From positions 303,425-367,424 of the forward strand of contig LS998015.1 in NCBI GenBank assembly GCA_900498245.1: DNA of 64,000 nucleotides, given 5' to 3'. Below are positions 7,488 to 57,957 of this stretch, piece by piece. Positions within the stretch are counted from its first letter, which is position 1; every line of letters starts with the position of its first letter. A program made the translations under genes and the position numbers. This stretch comes from Candidatus Zixiibacteriota bacterium (GTDB lineage: Bacteria > Zixibacteria > MSB-5A5 > GN15 > PGXB01). The notes below the pieces were generated by a model that was not told the DNA's origin, did not search any database, and saw only the letters and a program-made list of their open reading frames with translations.

Positions 7488-7762
7488 ATTCCTACCTTGC
7501 CCTTTACCTCTTCTTGTTGGTACCCGGCCGAAGTCCCCTCTGCCGCGAGGGGTTATTGCGATAAAACCCCGCTCTGCGAAAATATCACTCTTTGTCGTCT
7601 GAAATTTAATCCTTGTTCCTCGGGCGGGAATGTGGTAAGTTGGCCACATATAGGTTGGATTTGGTTCAGGCGCGGTTATTGTCAAAATATGACACTCGAC
7701 AGGGCCGCCAGAGCGGCCATCGACAAAAATATCAATCATATAAAGCCCCAAAGGAGAAGAAT
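7488..7762. other. spacer upstream of the sugar operon
   Basis: About 275 bases with two small GC hairpins (CCCTCTGCCGCGAGGGG; GGCCGCCAGAGCGGCC). No tRNA cloverleaf or coding frame that I trust. It should carry the promoter of the sugar-transport operon, but I cannot pick one with confidence. Confidence 0.35.
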
Positions 7763-37202: not shown

Positions 37203-39029
37203 ATGAGTCCACAGGAAATTGCCAAAAAGAATCCGGCCGATAAGGCCCCGACCTGGGATCTGGAATCGATTTTTCCCGGCGGGAGCAGTTCGAAAGAGTA
37301 TGCCGCCTTTCGCGATAAAATCAAGAAAGATCTGAAATCCCTCACCGCCAAATTCGCCAAATTGCCGCCCAAATTGAACACCGCCTCGCGCGGGAAATGG
37401 GCCGATTATATTGTCGCCATGCAGGAGTTCGTGAGCCGCCTCGTGGAGGCCTCCGCTTTTTCTCACTGCCTGGTGAGCCAGAATGTCAACGACGAGAAAG
37501 GGCACCAGATTGTCGGCGAAATCGATGTCATCCGTTCCGAATATGAAAAATTGACCGTCTTACTCGAGGCCTTCGCCAAGAAACAGAGCGACAAGGAATG
37601 GGAAAAACTGGTGACCTCGCCGAAATTGAACGAAGTCAAATTCTATCTGAACGAAATGCGGGATATCGCCAAACTGAAGATGGCGCCGGAGTTCGAAGCA
37701 TTTGCCACCGATCTGGCGGTCAACGGTTATCATGCCTGGAACCGGCTGTATGACAAAATGTACGGCGACCTGCGGGGCGATTTCACCGAAGACGGAGCGA
37801 CCAAACAACTGTCGCTGGGACAACTGGCGCTCAAGACCAGTTCTCCCGACCGCGATGCCCGCCGGCGGGCGCATCAGGCCATCGAATCCGCCTGGGAGAG
37901 CCGCGCCAATCTCGCTTCGATGGCCCTCAACTTCCAGGCCGGTTTCCGGCTGACAATGTATGAGAAACGGGGCTGGAAATCGCCCCTTCTGGAACCGCTC
38001 ATGAATTGCCGTATCAAACAAAAGACGCTCGACGCCATGTGGCAGGCGGTCGCCGAAGCGGGACCCCGGCTCAAAAAGTACATCGATGCCAAAAAGAGAC
38101 TGCTCGGTATCGATAAATTCTGCTGGTACGACCAGACCGCGCCGGTAGGCCGCTCCGACCGTACCTACGGTTTCAACGAAGCCGGAGAGTTCATCATCGC
38201 CAATTTCAGGATGCTGGGGAACGAGTTGGCCGATTTTTCCCGGATGGCGCTCGATAAGCGGTGGGTCGAAGCCGAGGATCGTCCCGGTAAGGCCGGCGGC
38301 GGCTACTGCACCACGCTCCGGGTTTCCAAACAGAGTCGGATCTTCATGACCTGGGGGGGAAGTTTCGCGGAATTAAGTACCCTGGCCCACGAACTCGGTC
38401 ATGCCTATCATCACAGCGTCCTTAAGGACAATCCGGTGTTTTCGTCGGTTTACCCGATGACCCTCGCCGAGACGGCGTCGATATTCAACGAACTGATTGT
38501 CACCAACGGCGCGTTCGAAGCAAGCCGGGACGATGACGAAAAACTGATGCTTCTGGATCAAAAACTTCAGAACGCCTACATCCTGTTCTGCAATCTCTAC
38601 GCCCGCTTCCTGTTCGACCGGGCCTTCTATGACGAACGCAAGAAGGGGCTGGTGAGCCGGAGCCGTCTCGATGAAATGATGCTGGCCGCGCAGAAGGAAG
38701 CGTTCGCGGGGACCCTCGATCCGAACGAAGGCTTCCATAAACTGTTCTGGGCGTCGAAACTGCACTTCTATCTGACCGATAATCCGTTCTATAATTTCCC
38801 TTATACGTTCGGGTTTCTTTTCGCGAACGGAGTGTACAGCCGGGCCAGAAAAGAAGGACCGGCCTTTGCCAAAAAATATCGGGCGCTCCTGGCCGACACC
38901 GGCAAAATGACCAGCGAGCAGGTGGCCAAAAAACATCTCGGGGTCGATTTGACCAAACCGGATTTCTGGCGTGAGGCGGTCAATCTGGCCCTGGCCGATA
39001 TCGATGCTTTCGTCAAACTGGCCGGGTAA
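37203..39029 (+). CDS. pepF: M3 family oligoendopeptidase F
   Basis: 608 residues, typical PepF length. The zinc site is LAHELGHAYHH (H396, E397, H400) with the third ligand E423 in LAETASIFNE. GGGYCTTL and the C-terminal PYTFGFLFANGVY also fit the family. CAGGAG lies before the ATG. No signal peptide: a cytoplasmic enzyme cleaving short peptides. It stands alone with its own promoter. Confidence 0.95.
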   Translation: MSPQEIAKKNPADKAPTWDLESIFPGGSSSKEYAAFRDKIKKDLKSLTAKFAKLPPKLNTASRGKWADYIVAMQEFVSRLVEASAFSHCLVSQNVNDEKGHQIVGEIDVIRSEYEKLTVLLEAFAKKQSDKEWEKLVTSPKLNEVKFYLNEMRDIAKLKMAPEFEAFATDLAVNGYHAWNRLYDKMYGDLRGDFTEDGATKQLSLGQLALKTSSPDRDARRRAHQAIESAWESRANLASMALNFQAGFRLTMYEKRGWKSPLLEPLMNCRIKQKTLDAMWQAVAEAGPRLKKYIDAKKRLLGIDKFCWYDQTAPVGRSDRTYGFNEAGEFIIANFRMLGNELADFSRMALDKRWVEAEDRPGKAGGGYCTTLRVSKQSRIFMTWGGSFAELSTLAHELGHAYHHSVLKDNPVFSSVYPMTLAETASIFNELIVTNGAFEASRDDDEKLMLLDQKLQNAYILFCNLYARFLFDRAFYDERKKGLVSRSRLDEMMLAAQKEAFAGTLDPNEGFHKLFWASKLHFYLTDNPFYNFPYTFGFLFANGVYSRARKEGPAFAKKYRALLADTGKMTSEQVAKKHLGVDLTKPDFWREAVNLALADIDAFVKLAG

Positions 39030-39151: not shown

Positions 39152-39457
39152 ATGAAGAATGTCGATAGATGGGATAATTTCCTGTATCGTCCCCGAATGG
39201 CAAAAATATTGTTCTGGACGGTAGCCGGCCCGATGTTGATCCCCTTATTTGCCTACATGCTTTCTTTCCCGGTGACCCTATTGCTCTGGCTGCTTACCTA
39301 TCCGCTTCAGGGCACGAATCTTCCCTTGATGGAAATAATTCTCTACCCATCTCTTCTAATCTGCCTGGCCTTCTCAATTCTGATCGTCATATGGCTGTGG
39401 AAATCATTCAAAAAGCATATCCTCAGCACGCGCGACGATAAATCACCGACTCTGTAA
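39152..39457 (+). CDS. small membrane protein of unknown function
   Basis: 101 residues; no family recognised. Two membrane helices (ILFWTVAGPMLIPLFAYMLSFPVTLLLWLL and IILYPSLLICLAFSILIVIWLW) followed by a basic tail (KSFKKHILSTRDD). GAGG lies 5 bases before the ATG. It precedes the peptide locus but is separated from it by about 400 bases and a new promoter, so membership is doubtful. Confidence 0.6.
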   Translation: MKNVDRWDNFLYRPRMAKILFWTVAGPMLIPLFAYMLSFPVTLLLWLLTYPLQGTNLPLMEIILYPSLLICLAFSILIVIWLWKSFKKHILSTRDDKSPTL

Positions 39458-39622: not shown

Positions 39623-39650
39623 TTGACAATAATGAAGGGGGACGTATTTT
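39623..39650 (+). promoter_or_regulatory. promoter of the peptide (RiPP-type) locus
   Basis: TTGACA at 39623-39628, 16-base spacer, TATTTT at 39645-39650 (a TAATAT follows at once, offering an alternative with a longer spacer). This leaves a leader of about 200 bases before the peptide start, ending with a GCGTT/AACGC hairpin. The sequence 39458-39622 shows no gene. Confidence 0.5.
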
Positions 39651-39861
39651 TAATATAGAGGATTTTCAGTGCACTCCTGTAATTCTGGGAAGGCGTGCTG
39701 TACTGGTTAGGGATAATTAAAAAATGCGATTTTTTTTCTATGAGTGAGAGACTCCGATTTCGTCGACGGCGGGGTCATGTGTAAATCGGTTCGGTTTTCT
39801 GTCCGGGCCGCTGGGTCTAAACCTGCAGGCGTTTTTTAACGCTTCAACCGAAAGGAGGGCC

Positions 39862-39987
39862 ATGTCTTACAAAAAGCCCGCTTATCACCAGGTGGAGGAT
39901 GAGGTGACCTCGTTTGAGGCCCCGATTCTGGGAATAATTATCCTGGCGATAATTATTGTCACTCTAACTCCGGGGGAAGCGCAGTAG
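39862..39987 (+). CDS. 41-residue putative RiPP precursor peptide
   Basis: Start codon preceded by a strong AAAGGAGGG site (39851-39859). The N-terminal half is charged and polar (MSYKKPAYHQVEDEVTSFE), as a leader would be. The C-terminal half is very hydrophobic (APILGIIILAIIIVTLTP) ending GEAQ. It has no cysteine and no signal peptide. It sits directly before permease, ABC ATPase, PqqD-radical SAM and M50-like genes, the classical surroundings of a ribosomally made, modified peptide. Precursor status is inferred from position, size and leader/core polarity; a small membrane subunit of the transporter is the main alternative. Confidence 0.7.
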   Translation: MSYKKPAYHQVEDEVTSFEAPILGIIILAIIIVTLTPGEAQ

Positions 39988-40000
39988 TTTCCTCGACCGC

Positions 40001-40034
40001 GGCCGGCGATTCAAAGCGGATTGAATTGCCGGCC
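40001..40034 (+). promoter_or_regulatory. strong hairpin between peptide gene and downstream genes
   Basis: GGCCGGC pairs with GCCGGCC and ATTCAA with TTGAAT, thirteen pairs in all with one internal mismatch and an AGCGGA loop. No T-run follows, so it looks more like an RNA-stabilising or processing element than a terminator. Confidence 0.6.
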
Positions 40035-40072
40035 CGGCCTTAAAAACTTATAATGGCTTTTATAACGAGACT

Positions 40073-41443
40073 ATGGAAAAAATTTCGTTAATATTCGGAC
40101 TGCGACTACTCGTCTTCAAGAGGATCATCGGGTCGATAACAATCACCGAGTGGCTGAAAATCACCGTAATCTCTGCTCTGGGCCTATTTCTTTTCTGGCG
40201 CGGTCTCGGAAATGTCATGGCCTACCTGTACAAATCTCTGGATACGGCGACAGCCGACAGGGTGGTCTGGCTGGCCCTTGTTCAATTCGGATTGCTTTTG
40301 ATTCTGGAGGGCGCCATTTCAGGAGTCAGGAAATTGTACAAGACTCCGGAAAATGATTTTCTTTTATCGTTCCCAATCAGTCTCGGGGATTTATTCGTCA
40401 TTCGATGGATGGAGCGGCTTCTTGTCAATTCCCTGTTCATCGTTTTCGGAGCCCTGGTCATGATACGTCAGTCATCTTGGAGCGATGTTTCCTGGGTCAC
40501 GTATCTGCAACTCCTGACGCTGGTTCTCTTTATTCATCATACCCAGTTCGTGATTGCTCTGTTGTATTCACGCAGGATTCCGGCCCGTTTTTTCCCCTGG
40601 CTGGGAATTGCGATTATTATTCCCGCAATCGCGGCCTTTTATCTTGTCCGGTACATTCCGGCGGCGTTTTCCTGGTCAATCATTCTCGCGACAATCATAC
40701 TAAATCTCGCCCTTCTGGGTTCGGCCGTCATACTGCGGCGATTATACGCCGCATCGATGTTCAGCGAATATGGTATCGTAACGGCGGTTCGCTACGGGCG
40801 CCGATTTTCATATCATCGATTCCTGTCCCGACCGGGTGTGAACAACCCGGCCAAAGCGCTTCTGGCCAAAGATATCATTCTTCTGATTCGACAGTGGCCC
40901 TATACTCAGAGTGTCGTGACTTTTATCCTATTGATATTCGTGACGGCGGTATTATTTGCACAGGCCGGCAATAATGCCCTGGTGATAGTGGCGTCCTTCG
41001 GCGGTTTCGTGATTTTTTCCTGGTCGACATTGGTATTCGCCTTCGATAAAAGGCAGTGGGCCGGTTTCTGGATGATGCGGAGCGCCCCCCTGACCGGCAG
41101 GCAAATCTGGCTATCACGATTTTATTTGCTTCTGCTAATGACGATTATCGCGGCCCTGTTATATCTCATTCCGATGGTAATCGGGGGATGCACCGTGGCA
41201 CAATTGACGGTCTCTCTCGTGGTCCTTGTTGCCGAAGCCGTCGCTTTTTCGCTTCTGGCCAACGGTCTGCTTTTTGTCACTTTGCCGCATTATCGGACGG
41301 GGGAGTATCTTTTCGCCATTTTCACGGCTATCGGGATCGCTCTGGGCGTGTCTCTGCCGATAATATTGCCCCCCCTGCTTATAATAATATTGATTATGAA
41401 TTTCAGAAAAGGCGTCGAACGGATCGAAACGATGGAGTTATAG
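40073..41443 (+). CDS. ABC-2-type transporter permease of the peptide locus
   Basis: 456 residues with about ten to twelve membrane helices (for example LVQFGLLLILEGAISGV, YLQLLTLVLFIHHTQFVIALL, FILLIFVTAVLFAQAG, LLIIILIMNF at the end). Layout and spacing with the following ATPase gene (4 bases) fit an exporter of the ABC-2 class. Probably exports the finished peptide or protects the producer. The ATG lacks a good ribosome site. No protease domain is fused to it. Confidence 0.82.
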   Translation: MEKISLIFGLRLLVFKRIIGSITITEWLKITVISALGLFLFWRGLGNVMAYLYKSLDTATADRVVWLALVQFGLLLILEGAISGVRKLYKTPENDFLLSFPISLGDLFVIRWMERLLVNSLFIVFGALVMIRQSSWSDVSWVTYLQLLTLVLFIHHTQFVIALLYSRRIPARFFPWLGIAIIIPAIAAFYLVRYIPAAFSWSIILATIILNLALLGSAVILRRLYAASMFSEYGIVTAVRYGRRFSYHRFLSRPGVNNPAKALLAKDIILLIRQWPYTQSVVTFILLIFVTAVLFAQAGNNALVIVASFGGFVIFSWSTLVFAFDKRQWAGFWMMRSAPLTGRQIWLSRFYLLLLMTIIAALLYLIPMVIGGCTVAQLTVSLVVLVAEAVAFSLLANGLLFVTLPHYRTGEYLFAIFTAIGIALGVSLPIILPPLLIIILIMNFRKGVERIETMEL

Positions 41444-41447
41444 TAAA

Positions 41448-42152
41448 ATGGTCGTATTCAGCGGAGTCTATAAAAATTACGGACAGAACGTCGGCACGGA
41501 CAATCTGACATTCCAAATCAACAAAGGCGACATATTCGGACTTCTCGGACCGAATGGGGCCGGCAAATCGACCACCGTGAAAATGCTCGTGGGATTGCTT
41601 CACCCCGACCTGGGTTCCATAACCGTAAACGGTCAACCGGTTGATCCCTCAGCGGCGGAAATGAAGAAACAGATCGGTTACAAGCCGGAAGCGCCTTATT
41701 TGTACGAAAATCTGACGGCCCGCGAGATCATGCACTTCGCCGCAAAAGTAAAGAATATTGCCTCGCCCGAAAGGGAGATCGAAAAACTTTTCGGGGCATT
41801 CGCTCTGAGCGACCGGGCCGATGACCTGATTATGACCTATTCTCACGGTATGAAATGCAAAACCGCGCTGTGCCTCGCTTTTATCGGTTCGCCCCAATTG
41901 ATCATTCTCGATGAACCGACCAACGGCCTCGATCCCATGAGTGTCTATAACATGAAAGAATTGATTGCGGAATATTCGCGGGCCGGGGCCACCATAATCC
42001 TCTCCAGCCATATCCTCGATTTCGTGGAAAAAATCTGCACCCGCTTCGGGATCCTGGACAAGGGGCAATTGAAGGCCCTGGCCGGTCCTGACGATCTTCG
42101 CCGTGAGAACCGCAGTCTCGAGGAATTTTTCATCGCCCATTTGAAGGGATAA
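41448..42152 (+). CDS. ABC transporter ATP-binding protein of the peptide locus
   Basis: 234 residues. Walker A GPNGAGKST, Walker B LIILDEPTNGLDP, switch histidine in ILSSHILD. The signature is YSHGMKCK, departing from LSGGMKQR at two places (H for the first G, C for Q), which is seen in some CcmA/EcsA-type proteins. Pairs with the upstream permease; the rSAM gene begins 5 bases downstream. Confidence 0.92.
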   Translation: MVVFSGVYKNYGQNVGTDNLTFQINKGDIFGLLGPNGAGKSTTVKMLVGLLHPDLGSITVNGQPVDPSAAEMKKQIGYKPEAPYLYENLTAREIMHFAAKVKNIASPEREIEKLFGAFALSDRADDLIMTYSHGMKCKTALCLAFIGSPQLIILDEPTNGLDPMSVYNMKELIAEYSRAGATIILSSHILDFVEKICTRFGILDKGQLKALAGPDDLRRENRSLEEFFIAHLKG

Positions 42153-42157
42153 GAATT

Positions 42158-43876
42158 ATGGACAAGCATCTGACACCCAAAAGGATTTCCGATATCTGGA
42201 AATCGGTCGATGAGGACGGCGGGGCGACCTGCAAAATCATGGCGCCCCGGGGAATTTTCCACCTCGATGCTATCGCCGCCATGGTCTGGCGCCAATGCGA
42301 CGGACGTACCTCCATAGCGTCGATCATAGAAGCGATGGGTGAGGCCTTTCCCGATATTGAACCGGATACGATATCCGACGATATCACGGAGCTATTGAAA
42401 AAACTCAGCGATGATTATCTTATCATCCTGAATTACCATCCGCTTCGTCCTTACGCCGATGATAAAGTCATTCATGCCCAGCGTCAAATCAGGATACGGG
42501 AATCCGACGATCCGGAGTGTGAATTTCTCCTGATCGTGCCCCCGTCGCCGCATCCCCTGACTCCTTTTGTCAACCTCTCGGACCTGAGTCATCTGGGTTG
42601 CGGTTACCTGTCCGCCGTTTTGAAAGACGACGGCTTCAAAGTGAAAATATACAATTTCTGGAATAAGGAATGTTACGAAGCTGACCTGATAAAGATAATC
42701 GGCCGGCACCGGCCGAGAGTTGTCGGGCTGACGACCATGACGGAGAATTATGAAAACGGCGTCCTGATTGCCCGGGTGATAAAAGAAGCCGATCCTTCCA
42801 TAATTGTCATAATGGGGGGCCCGCATGTCACTTTCACGGATCGGCAAACGCTGGAAAGAACGCCGATCGATATAATCGCCCGGGGTGAAGGAGAGCAAAC
42901 CATAATCGATCTGGCACGGTACTTCATCCGCGGCGAGGGATCTCTTGAAAATATTCCGGGAATATCTTATCGCAACGGCAACGGCTTCATCCGGAATCCC
43001 GACCGGCCTTTTATCGCCGATCTGGACACCCTTCCTTTTCCCGACCGGAAGGGTATCAGGACCGAATATACCCGCTCTTTTCCGGTAATATCTTCCCGGG
43101 GCTGTCCGCACCTGTGCCATTTCTGCGCCGCCGGCGCCATGTCGGGTTGCCGGTATCGCAAGAGAAATCCCGAACTGGTGGTTGAGGAAATCAAGCGGTT
43201 TATCGGCGATGATCAAAAATTCGTTTTCTTTCAGGACGACAATTTCACGGCCGACGCCGGGCGGATGTTCAAAATTCTGGAAATTATGAAATTGCGGGAT
43301 ATAAATGTCACCTGGACGGCTGAATCCCGGGTGACGATCGCCGAAAAGGATCCGGGAATATTCGGAAGAATGAAAGCGCTGGGATGCTACGCTCTCCAGT
43401 TCGGTATCGAATCCGGCTCCCAGGAAATTCTGGATCGGGTCAATAAACGTATCACCCTGGAACAGATCGAGCGCGGGGTCCGCCTGGCTTCCGAAGCCGG
43501 TATCGCGCCGGCCTGTTCGTTTATTATCGGACACCCCGATGATACTCCCGATACGGTCGAGGCCACCATAAAATTGGCCGAGCGTCTACAGGCCGACTAC
43601 GGCGCTCTCGCCGGCATTTCTCTCCTTGTCCCGTACCCCGGAACCTATCTGGCCAATAATCTGGAGCAATTCGGGTTAACCCTGCACTCTCGAAACTACG
43701 ATGATTATCACAGCGTCAGTTCCATTCTGTCCTCCGATAAACTCTCCCTGGCCGACCGCAAGCGATTCTATTATGACGCCATGATCCGTACCGTAAAAAC
43801 TCGGTCCAGCAAATATCGGCTCAATATCCTGGCCCCGGCGTTCGTCGATCAATTATTTCCCCGGGAAAGTGCATGA
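42158..43876 (+). CDS. PqqD-like (RRE) / B12-binding / radical SAM maturase
   Basis: 572 residues. Residues about 25-95 look like a PqqD/RiPP-recognition element (FHLDAIAAMVWRQCDGRTSIASIIEAM ... DITELLKKLSDDYLI). Residues about 120-250 are a B12-binding-like Rossmann domain (VVGLTTMTENYENG, IMGGPHVTFTD) without the DxHxxG histidine. From about 305 comes the radical SAM domain with the [4Fe-4S] cysteines C316, C320, C323 (SSRGCPHLCHFC), a GGE-equivalent area and QFGIESGSQEILDRVNK. Likely modifies the peptide, perhaps by methyl transfer or ring formation; the chemistry cannot be told. Overlaps the next gene by 4 bases. Confidence 0.85.
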   Translation: MDKHLTPKRISDIWKSVDEDGGATCKIMAPRGIFHLDAIAAMVWRQCDGRTSIASIIEAMGEAFPDIEPDTISDDITELLKKLSDDYLIILNYHPLRPYADDKVIHAQRQIRIRESDDPECEFLLIVPPSPHPLTPFVNLSDLSHLGCGYLSAVLKDDGFKVKIYNFWNKECYEADLIKIIGRHRPRVVGLTTMTENYENGVLIARVIKEADPSIIVIMGGPHVTFTDRQTLERTPIDIIARGEGEQTIIDLARYFIRGEGSLENIPGISYRNGNGFIRNPDRPFIADLDTLPFPDRKGIRTEYTRSFPVISSRGCPHLCHFCAAGAMSGCRYRKRNPELVVEEIKRFIGDDQKFVFFQDDNFTADAGRMFKILEIMKLRDINVTWTAESRVTIAEKDPGIFGRMKALGCYALQFGIESGSQEILDRVNKRITLEQIERGVRLASEAGIAPACSFIIGHPDDTPDTVEATIKLAERLQADYGALAGISLLVPYPGTYLANNLEQFGLTLHSRNYDDYHSVSSILSSDKLSLADRKRFYYDAMIRTVKTRSSKYRLNILAPAFVDQLFPRESA

Positions 43877-44937
43877 AAATCGCTCAGTATGATTTTCCTC
43901 TCAATGAAAAGATCAAGGGCAACCCCATTTTTCTTCTAATTTTTCTCCTTATAAGAATCTATCGCTATTTGTTTGCTCTCCCGGTCATTTCTTTGATCGC
44001 CGCATTTTTGCTTTTTCTCGTGGCTGTAAATCCTTCCGGTCTCTTATCCCTGGCCGTGCCTCAGGGCCGCTGGCGGTTGTACCTCCTGCTGATCAATATT
44101 TTGACCATACCGATCGCGGCCGTCCTGGAAGAATTCTCGCATGCCGCGGTTGCCGTTCAGTTGGGGCGAATCGACCTGCCCCGGGTTCTCCGTATCAGAA
44201 CGCTGGCATCGGCGAACGACAAAAATTTGCTGGCCTTCTCTTTCTCGATCGCAAATGAGGGACATTTTTCCGCGCCGGAACTGCTGAAAATCAGATTGGG
44301 CGGCCCGATCGGGGCGATGGGACTGTCGGTCCTGCTTTTAATTATCCTGTATTTCATCGGGGTCGTAGAGGCAGGATTCGGACTGATAGCCGGACTCGTG
44401 ATGCCGGTCAGTTCCCTCGTGCCGTACCGTATGCTGATTGAAAGCGACGGGTATGCGGTCCGGAAAGTCTCCCGCGAACTGAAATTGCCGATAGTGCAAT
44501 TGTGGCTGATCGCTCTGGAATGCTTTTACCTGGTGATTCGCTTTTTACTGGGAGCGAAGGTTCCTTTCAGATATGCCATTTCGCGCCAAATTGTCGAGGC
44601 CGCCGATTTCTATTCCCGGAAGGAATATGGAAAGGCCGCCGAATTGCTTTCCGAGGTCATTCAATTTCGCCGCGAAGACCCGGAAATGTCTAATAATCTG
44701 GCCCTGGCTTTGGTTGGGTCGGGGATCAGGCTCGATGAGGCCGAGGCGCTGGCCCATTGTGCCCTCGAAAAAGACCCGAATGATCCCCAGTACAATGACA
44801 CCATGGGACAGGTCTGTTTCAAACTCGGGAACCGCTCGGGGGGGCTGGAGTATCTGAAAAAGGCGCACCGCCTCGCTCCTTCCGATCCGGAAATCCGCCG
44901 GCATCTCGATGAGGCCGAGGCGGAGACCAAGACATAA
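43873..44937 (+). CDS. M50-like membrane protein with altered zinc motif and TPR tail
   Basis: 354 residues. Residues 20-230 hold about six membrane helices arranged like site-2 proteases. The HExxH position reads EEFSH (E86, E87, H90), LGGPIGAM replaces the usual middle loop, and SDG (D192) stands where the third metal ligand is expected. Residues 235-354 are TPR-like (EYGKAAELLSEVIQFRREDPEMSNNLALALVG; DEAEALAHCALEKDPNDPQYNDTMG). ATGA overlap with the radical SAM gene shows translational coupling. It may be the leader protease, an immunity protein, or an inactive scaffold. Confidence 0.7.
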   Translation: MKIAQYDFPLNEKIKGNPIFLLIFLLIRIYRYLFALPVISLIAAFLLFLVAVNPSGLLSLAVPQGRWRLYLLLINILTIPIAAVLEEFSHAAVAVQLGRIDLPRVLRIRTLASANDKNLLAFSFSIANEGHFSAPELLKIRLGGPIGAMGLSVLLLIILYFIGVVEAGFGLIAGLVMPVSSLVPYRMLIESDGYAVRKVSRELKLPIVQLWLIALECFYLVIRFLLGAKVPFRYAISRQIVEAADFYSRKEYGKAAELLSEVIQFRREDPEMSNNLALALVGSGIRLDEAEALAHCALEKDPNDPQYNDTMGQVCFKLGNRSGGLEYLKKAHRLAPSDPEIRRHLDEAEAETKT

Positions 44938-48729: not shown

Positions 48730-48758
48730 TTGACTCTATATTAGAATTTTGTTAAAAT
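48730..48758 (+). promoter_or_regulatory. promoter of the phosphate-uptake pair
   Basis: TTGACT at 48730-48735, 17-base spacer, TAAAAT at 48753-48758. No obvious Pho-box repeats are seen. Confidence 0.6.
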
Positions 48759-57582: not shown

Positions 57583-57957
57583 GGCGAAGAAAAAGGGCGG
57601 ACACACTGGTCCGCCCTTACGAATGCACGGGCTCGTCGAAAGCGGGGCCGCACATAGGGACAAAGAATCGGTGGGCCGGACATTCTTGTCCGGCTCCTTG
57701 GTGGAGGACCGGAATGTCATCCCCTCCTCCGGGGAATTTGTGTCGGGCGAAAAAAGAGGGCGGACACGCCGGTCCGCCATTACGAATGCACGGACCCGTC
57801 GAAAGCGGGCCCGCACACAGGGACAAAGAATCGGTGGGCCGGACATTCTTGTCCGGCTCCTTGGTGGAGGACCGGAATGTCCCTCCCATCTCCGGGGAAT
57901 TTGTGTCGGGCGAAAAAAAAGGGCGGACGCACCGGTCCGCCCCTACAAATGCACGCG
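57583..57957. repeat. 163-bp direct tandem repeat, two full units and a partial third
   Basis: The marker AGGGCGG occurs at 57594, 57757 and 57920, an exact 163-base period. Each unit contains a hairpin GGGCGGAC...GTCCGCCC, then TTACGAATGCACGG, then a second hairpin CCGGACATTCTTGTCCGG and the phrase TTGGTGGAGGACCGGAATGT. The third unit stops after the first hairpin. It ends just before the stop codon of the CoA-transferase gene. Confidence 0.85.

Follow-up and report, generated by a model that had tools for sequence, protein, structure and literature searches.

Does a 41-codon ORF at the head of a compact operon encode a peptide that is altered by the radical SAM enzyme encoded three genes further downstream, as expected of a RiPP pathway? 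An earlier note on the 64-kb stretch of DNA considered here (hereafter the window, meaning that whole stretch) proposed such a system, with a modified membrane-active peptide as its product. We judge the RiPP reading to be the best available for this operon and a probable one, and below we describe the evidence that bears on each of its parts. The operon consists of five co-directional genes on the forward strand spanning positions 39862-44937, and the features of the region are as follows.

39623-39650, + strand: promoter-like site TTGACA-16-TATTTT, 10 of 12 consensus positions (prediction only)
39862-39987, + strand: candidate precursor peptide, 41 aa, MSYKKPAYHQVEDEVTSFEAPILGIIILAIIIVTLTPGEAQ (ORF, ribosome site, coding score, shuffles, hydropathy)
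39997-40037, + strand: strong RNA hairpin, 14 pairs plus 3, no T-run (fold z-score -4.8)
40073-41443, + strand: ABC permease, 456 aa, about 10-12 membrane segments (PF16949, E 5.8e-6, just above the cut-off; hydropathy)
41448-42152, + strand: ABC transporter ATPase, 234 aa, Walker A motif GPNGAGKS (PF00005, E 1e-29)
42158-43876, + strand: candidate maturase with PqqD/RRE (residues 27-89), B12-binding (142-251) and radical SAM (310-474) domains (Pfam)
43873-44937, + strand: membrane protein (about residues 17-228) with C-terminal TPR (245-348) (hydropathy, TPR matches)

According to the ORF listing, the genes are separated, in order, by +85, +4, +5 and -4 bases. The genes are tightly packed and co-directional, but the several 4-base overlaps of the earlier note reduce to one (43873-43876), which joins the maturase gene to the last gene. 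In one relative (G010), a homologue of the peptidase gene that lies upstream of the operon (37203-39029) is followed by one other gene, after which comes the counterpart of the gene located at 48749 in the window, and in a member of the same genus (G014) different genes follow the peptidase gene. The site is therefore variable between relatives, and the operon looks like an accessory island. Just upstream, on the same strand, is a gene for a 101-aa membrane protein with no family match (39152-39457), which may or may not be a member of the locus. Elsewhere, the window carries a tandem array of a 163-base unit (57583-57955; 2.3 copies, 90% matches), and no Rfam family matched the window.

The ATG ORF at 39862-39987 is preceded by the ribosome site AAAGGAGGG, the best among the small ORFs of the window, and it is the only small ORF there that combines a consensus ribosome site with a positive coding score. 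This score, 0.24 per codon, exceeds the average for real genes and falls at the 74th percentile of real in-frame windows; only 0.26% of out-of-frame windows reach it, and the other small ORFs upstream score 0.08 or less. When the intergenic region that holds the ORF was shuffled, 14 of 3000 shuffles contained an ORF that starts with ATG, spans 35 aa or more and follows AAGGAG or AGGAGG. Thus, the tiny gene with a strong ribosome site noted previously is real. Its product has a polar N-terminal half and a hydrophobic segment at about residues 20-36 (hydropathy 2.8), and by hydropathy is a plausible single-span membrane protein. Residues 20-41 are rich in Ile, Leu, Val and Thr; Cys and Trp are absent from them, and F18 is the last aromatic residue of the peptide. 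Profile searches gave the peptide no family match, and no homologue was found at E<=0.3 in 132 genomes of the phylum.

Directly 3' of the stop codon of the peptide gene is the hairpin at 39997-40037, which was absent from the earlier note and is not repeated elsewhere in the window. A hairpin after a precursor gene is a known route by which one operon can yield more precursor than enzyme. The hairpin found here is in keeping with a RiPP operon that opens with its precursor gene, and probably allows the peptide to outnumber the enzyme. The 142 nt that precede the peptide gene show no unusual fold. The promoter-like site at 39623 is a weak indication only, because matches to the promoter consensus in this region exceed those in shuffled sequences (15 versus 6.2).

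The fourth gene encodes the candidate maturase, in which matches to PqqD (PF05402, E 1e-13), B12-binding (PF02310, E 4e-21) and radical SAM (PF04055, E 3e-25) domains follow one another in a single ORF, all three exceeding the Pfam cut-offs. The fusion reported earlier is thus confirmed. The locus has two features of RiPP gene clusters in general, a leader-recognition domain (RRE) and, beside the maturase gene, a small candidate precursor gene with its ribosome site, coding score and hairpin. The B12-binding and radical SAM matches, together with the motif CPHLCHFC (Cx3Cx2C), place the enzyme among the class B (B12-dependent) radical SAM proteins. The nearest PDB sequences include TokK, CysS, OxsB and a tryptophan methyltransferase, and, weakly, PqqD (5sxy). 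In a tree of 52 B12-dependent radical SAM proteins, the enzyme forms a lone branch, and the sequences closest to its catalytic half, at about 35% identity, are generic BchE/HpnJ-like members of this group, whose neighbours are non-peptide genes. The NCBIfam model for ApyD (NF050148) is its second-best match (E 2.4e-49), with residues 144-501 aligning to positions 24-392 of the 645-residue model. However, the score of 168 bits lies below the cut-off of 750 and no MNIO gene is present among the operon genes, so the enzyme does not qualify as an ApyD equivalog; nor does it qualify as a RiPP radical SAM C-methyltransferase of TIGR03975 (105 versus 282 bits). AlphaFold models made without alignments (mean pLDDT 47 and 35) were too poor for use.

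The last protein carries about five membrane segments, and TPR repeats form its C-terminal third. By eye, the sequence EEFSH (residues 86-90), LGGPIGA and then SDG follow one another in the order of M50 peptidase landmarks, and the distance from EEFSH to SDG is approximately that in M50 proteins of the same phylum. EEFSH stands in place of the M50 motif HExxH: it is encoded by GAA GAA TTC TCG CAT, and where M50 enzymes have the first zinc histidine it has a glutamate, whose codon lies two base changes from one for histidine. No M50 profile in Pfam or NCBIfam matched the protein, and its hhalign scores against 12 M50 proteins were no better than those of shuffled sequence. The description of this protein as M50-like is therefore unsupported beyond its motif layout, to which alone the likeness appears to extend. 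No recognised leader peptidase is encoded in the operon. Matches of the membrane half to an ATP synthase subunit, a flippase-like protein and an ABC exporter were rejected as chance.

PqqD domains are present in 106 of 386 genomes, and about 120 of their neighbourhoods were read. A PqqD domain occurs with a clear B12-dependent radical SAM protein in two of these, and both look like settings for peptide maturation. In the first (L120, genome G111), the domain is fused as in the window locus, at the C-terminus rather than the N-terminus, and the gene lies beside one for a SPASM peptide maturase. In the second (L272, genome G188), a discrete PqqD gene lies next to genes for a B12-dependent radical SAM protein and SPASM/GeoRSP-like proteins. 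Unlike the window locus, each has SPASM-type enzymes, and an ABC pair was seen in neither. Three further radical SAM proteins carry an N-terminal PqqD domain (L173, L178 and L281), with weak scores against B12-dependent radical SAM profiles. A PqqD domain alone is no proof of a RiPP, because such domains are also found in exopolysaccharide-like loci, such as one with a kinase-like gene (L279).

L120 (G111:C229, 6115-10083) is a possible RiPP locus with a 62-aa ORF, the SPASM radical SAM gene and the gene with the C-terminal PqqD domain. Within the SPASM gene, cysteine codons flank a TGA in frame at 7628-7630 (ACC-TGA-MNCC), with a strong hairpin (z -3.5) about 20 bases past it, which makes the gene a candidate for selenocysteine incorporation or else a broken gene. 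L272 (G188:C1, 4879-9783) is a possible multi-enzyme peptide system in which genes for a SPASM protein, a B12-dependent radical SAM protein, a discrete PqqD and a GeoRSP-like radical SAM protein are followed by one for a 140-aa protein with a Tat-like signal. Another locus (L266; G318:C73, 441-6724) has three B12-dependent radical SAM-like genes and another radical SAM gene beside a kinase-like gene. Fusion proteins of a PqqD-M50-HlyD-like type, several of them about 740-820 aa long, are found repeatedly in the phylum (L105-L119, L122-L124), and the genome from which the window comes probably encodes one as well (G000:C1:2364091-2364273), with a PqqD score just under the cut-off.

The exact arrangement of the window locus was not encountered again. 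Across up to 386 sampled relatives, including the 132 genomes of the phylum, there was no second N-terminal fusion, and homologues were found neither of the peptide nor of the membrane half of the final protein. Conserved gene order around the fusion in relatives had been proposed as a test in the earlier note, and no second locus was found in the collections searched. As a test, this outcome is neither for nor against the RiPP reading, since the searches turned up no relative of the entire fusion, whether accompanied by a peptide gene or not. The fusion was absent from viral contigs, no plasmid record covered 80% of it, and the wider genome contigs yielded one generic relative (32%) in a non-RiPP context. 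The idea is plausible and draws on one locus in one genome.

With these findings in mind, we propose that the 41-residue peptide would serve as the precursor. Its polar half (about residues 1-19) would be the leader, gripped by the RRE at the N-terminus of the enzyme, and its Ile/Leu/Val/Thr-rich half (about residues 20-41) would form the core, in which the B12-binding and radical SAM domains would then alter unactivated carbons. C-methylation of this segment is the likeliest chemistry, with roughly even chances of being correct. Some RiPP enzymes of this type can cross-link aromatic residues, as exemplified by PbsB (PMC12257519), and methylation is favoured here because the core lacks Cys and Trp and no aromatic residue follows F18. 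The ABC pair and the membrane/TPR protein would process and export the membrane-embedded product, or protect the producer. Taken as a whole, this scheme of RRE-guided modification followed by processing, export or protection is more likely than not.

Evidence for the RiPP reading comes from the union of PqqD, B12-binding and radical SAM domains in one ORF, the ribosome site and coding score of the small ORF, the placement of the hairpin between the peptide and enzyme genes and the tight packing of the operon. By analogy, L120 and L272, which both carry further peptide-maturase-type radical SAM genes, point the same way, as do the methylating precedents ApyD (PMC10635010) and PoyC (PMC5682303). 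Against it stand the lack of a second locus, of homologues of the peptide or the membrane half and of a recognised leader peptidase, the affinity of the solitary catalytic half to proteins from non-peptide contexts, and the presence of PqqD-like domains in loci, such as L279, that do not resemble RiPP loci. The RiPP reading of the earlier note thus stands as a reasonable expectation on the basis of the small gene, the RRE-bearing enzyme, the ABC pair and the hairpin, whereas its M50 assignment lacks profile support and its claim of novelty goes too far.

A more specific proposal is that the operon makes an epipeptide-like bacteriocin: the peptide, once modified, would permeabilise membranes, with self-immunity conferred by the ABC pair and release of the peptide by the membrane protein. 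This is a refinement of our preferred explanation with another maturase class, and we regard it as a tentative possibility. The epipeptide locus (yydFGHIJ/epeXEPAB) likewise unites a precursor, a radical SAM enzyme, a membrane protein (there a protease) and an ABC pair in one operon (PMC7026026; PMC10885120). In epipeptides the ABC pair is postulated to act in immunity, with a minor effect (PMC7026026), and the hydrophobic core of the window peptide agrees with such a function. However, YydG is a SPASM-like epimerase and thus of a different radical SAM class from the B12 enzyme with its fused RRE, the peptide and the gene order differ, and the protease motif is degenerate, with M50-like spacing but neither HExxH nor a profile match.

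Less probable, and in our view unlikely, is a reading in which the peptide stays unmodified and serves the ABC transporter or the membrane/TPR protein as a single-span accessory subunit, the enzyme acting on another substrate such as an exported lipid or glycan. The hydropathy of the peptide would permit this, the catalytic domain resembles BchE/HpnJ/lipid-type proteins, and PqqD-like domains do occur in polysaccharide-like loci (L279). Nevertheless, such a role leaves the RRE fused to the enzyme unexplained, the strong translation signal and hairpin of the smallest gene fit a precursor better, and the operon contains no lipid or glycan enzymes. A pearlin-type pathway, in which the peptide is a scaffold and the last protein frees the modified residue, is very improbable: the tmo cluster does combine a carrier peptide, an RRE protein, a B12-dependent radical SAM enzyme, a membrane metalloprotease and a transporter (PMC9303977), but the window operon has no PEARL ligase, MNIO, TmoS or SAM methyltransferase gene, bears its RRE on the radical SAM enzyme itself and encodes a peptide that its hydrophobic C-terminal half sets apart from a simple carrier. 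Equally remote is a spurious small ORF in an operon that begins at the permease, for which the lack of peptide homologues speaks, but against which the ribosome site, coding score, shuffle test and position of the hairpin after the ORF stop all count.

If the RiPP reading is correct, the operon offers a one-enzyme route to changes in the unactivated aliphatic side chains of peptides, self-guiding because recognition and catalysis reside in one chain, and small enough for reconstitution. It would also mean that RREs are joined to B12-dependent radical SAM enzymes at either end, and that the product is a heavily aliphatic, membrane-type peptide.

Among the closest known systems is the apy (aminopyruvatide) pathway of Burkholderia thailandensis E264, wherein ApyD, also an RRE-containing B12-dependent radical SAM enzyme that acts on a precursor peptide, methylates an unactivated sp3 carbon of a precursor tyrosine (PMC10635010). 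The novelty that the earlier note attached to the fusion was therefore overstated, and similar parts are also found in tmo (PMC9303977). Given that the ApyD model aligns from residue 24, the RRE of ApyD should be C-terminal, in contrast to the N-terminal domain of the window enzyme. The window operon also differs in having no MNIO, P450 or methyltransferase gene and an unrelated precursor. The polytheonamide enzymes PoyB and PoyC provide a precedent for the proposed chemistry, in that B12-dependent radical SAM enzymes methylate aliphatic residues of a hydrophobic core, with PoyC acting on Val C-beta (PMC5682303). However, PoyC has a Cx7Cx2C motif rather than Cx3Cx2C, and the window operon lacks the nitrile-hydratase-like proteusin leader, the epimerase and other poy-type genes. 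What is new here is the combination of an N-terminal RRE with an epipeptide-like gene set that is free of MNIO, P450 or PEARL, the parts being otherwise known. This combination might, although we hold the idea only tentatively, represent a new class of RiPP, whose defining parts would be a maturase of the N-terminal RRE-B12-radical SAM type, a transmembrane-like hydrophobic core, and an ABC pair that acts with a zinc-site-degenerate, TPR-bearing membrane protein in export or immunity.
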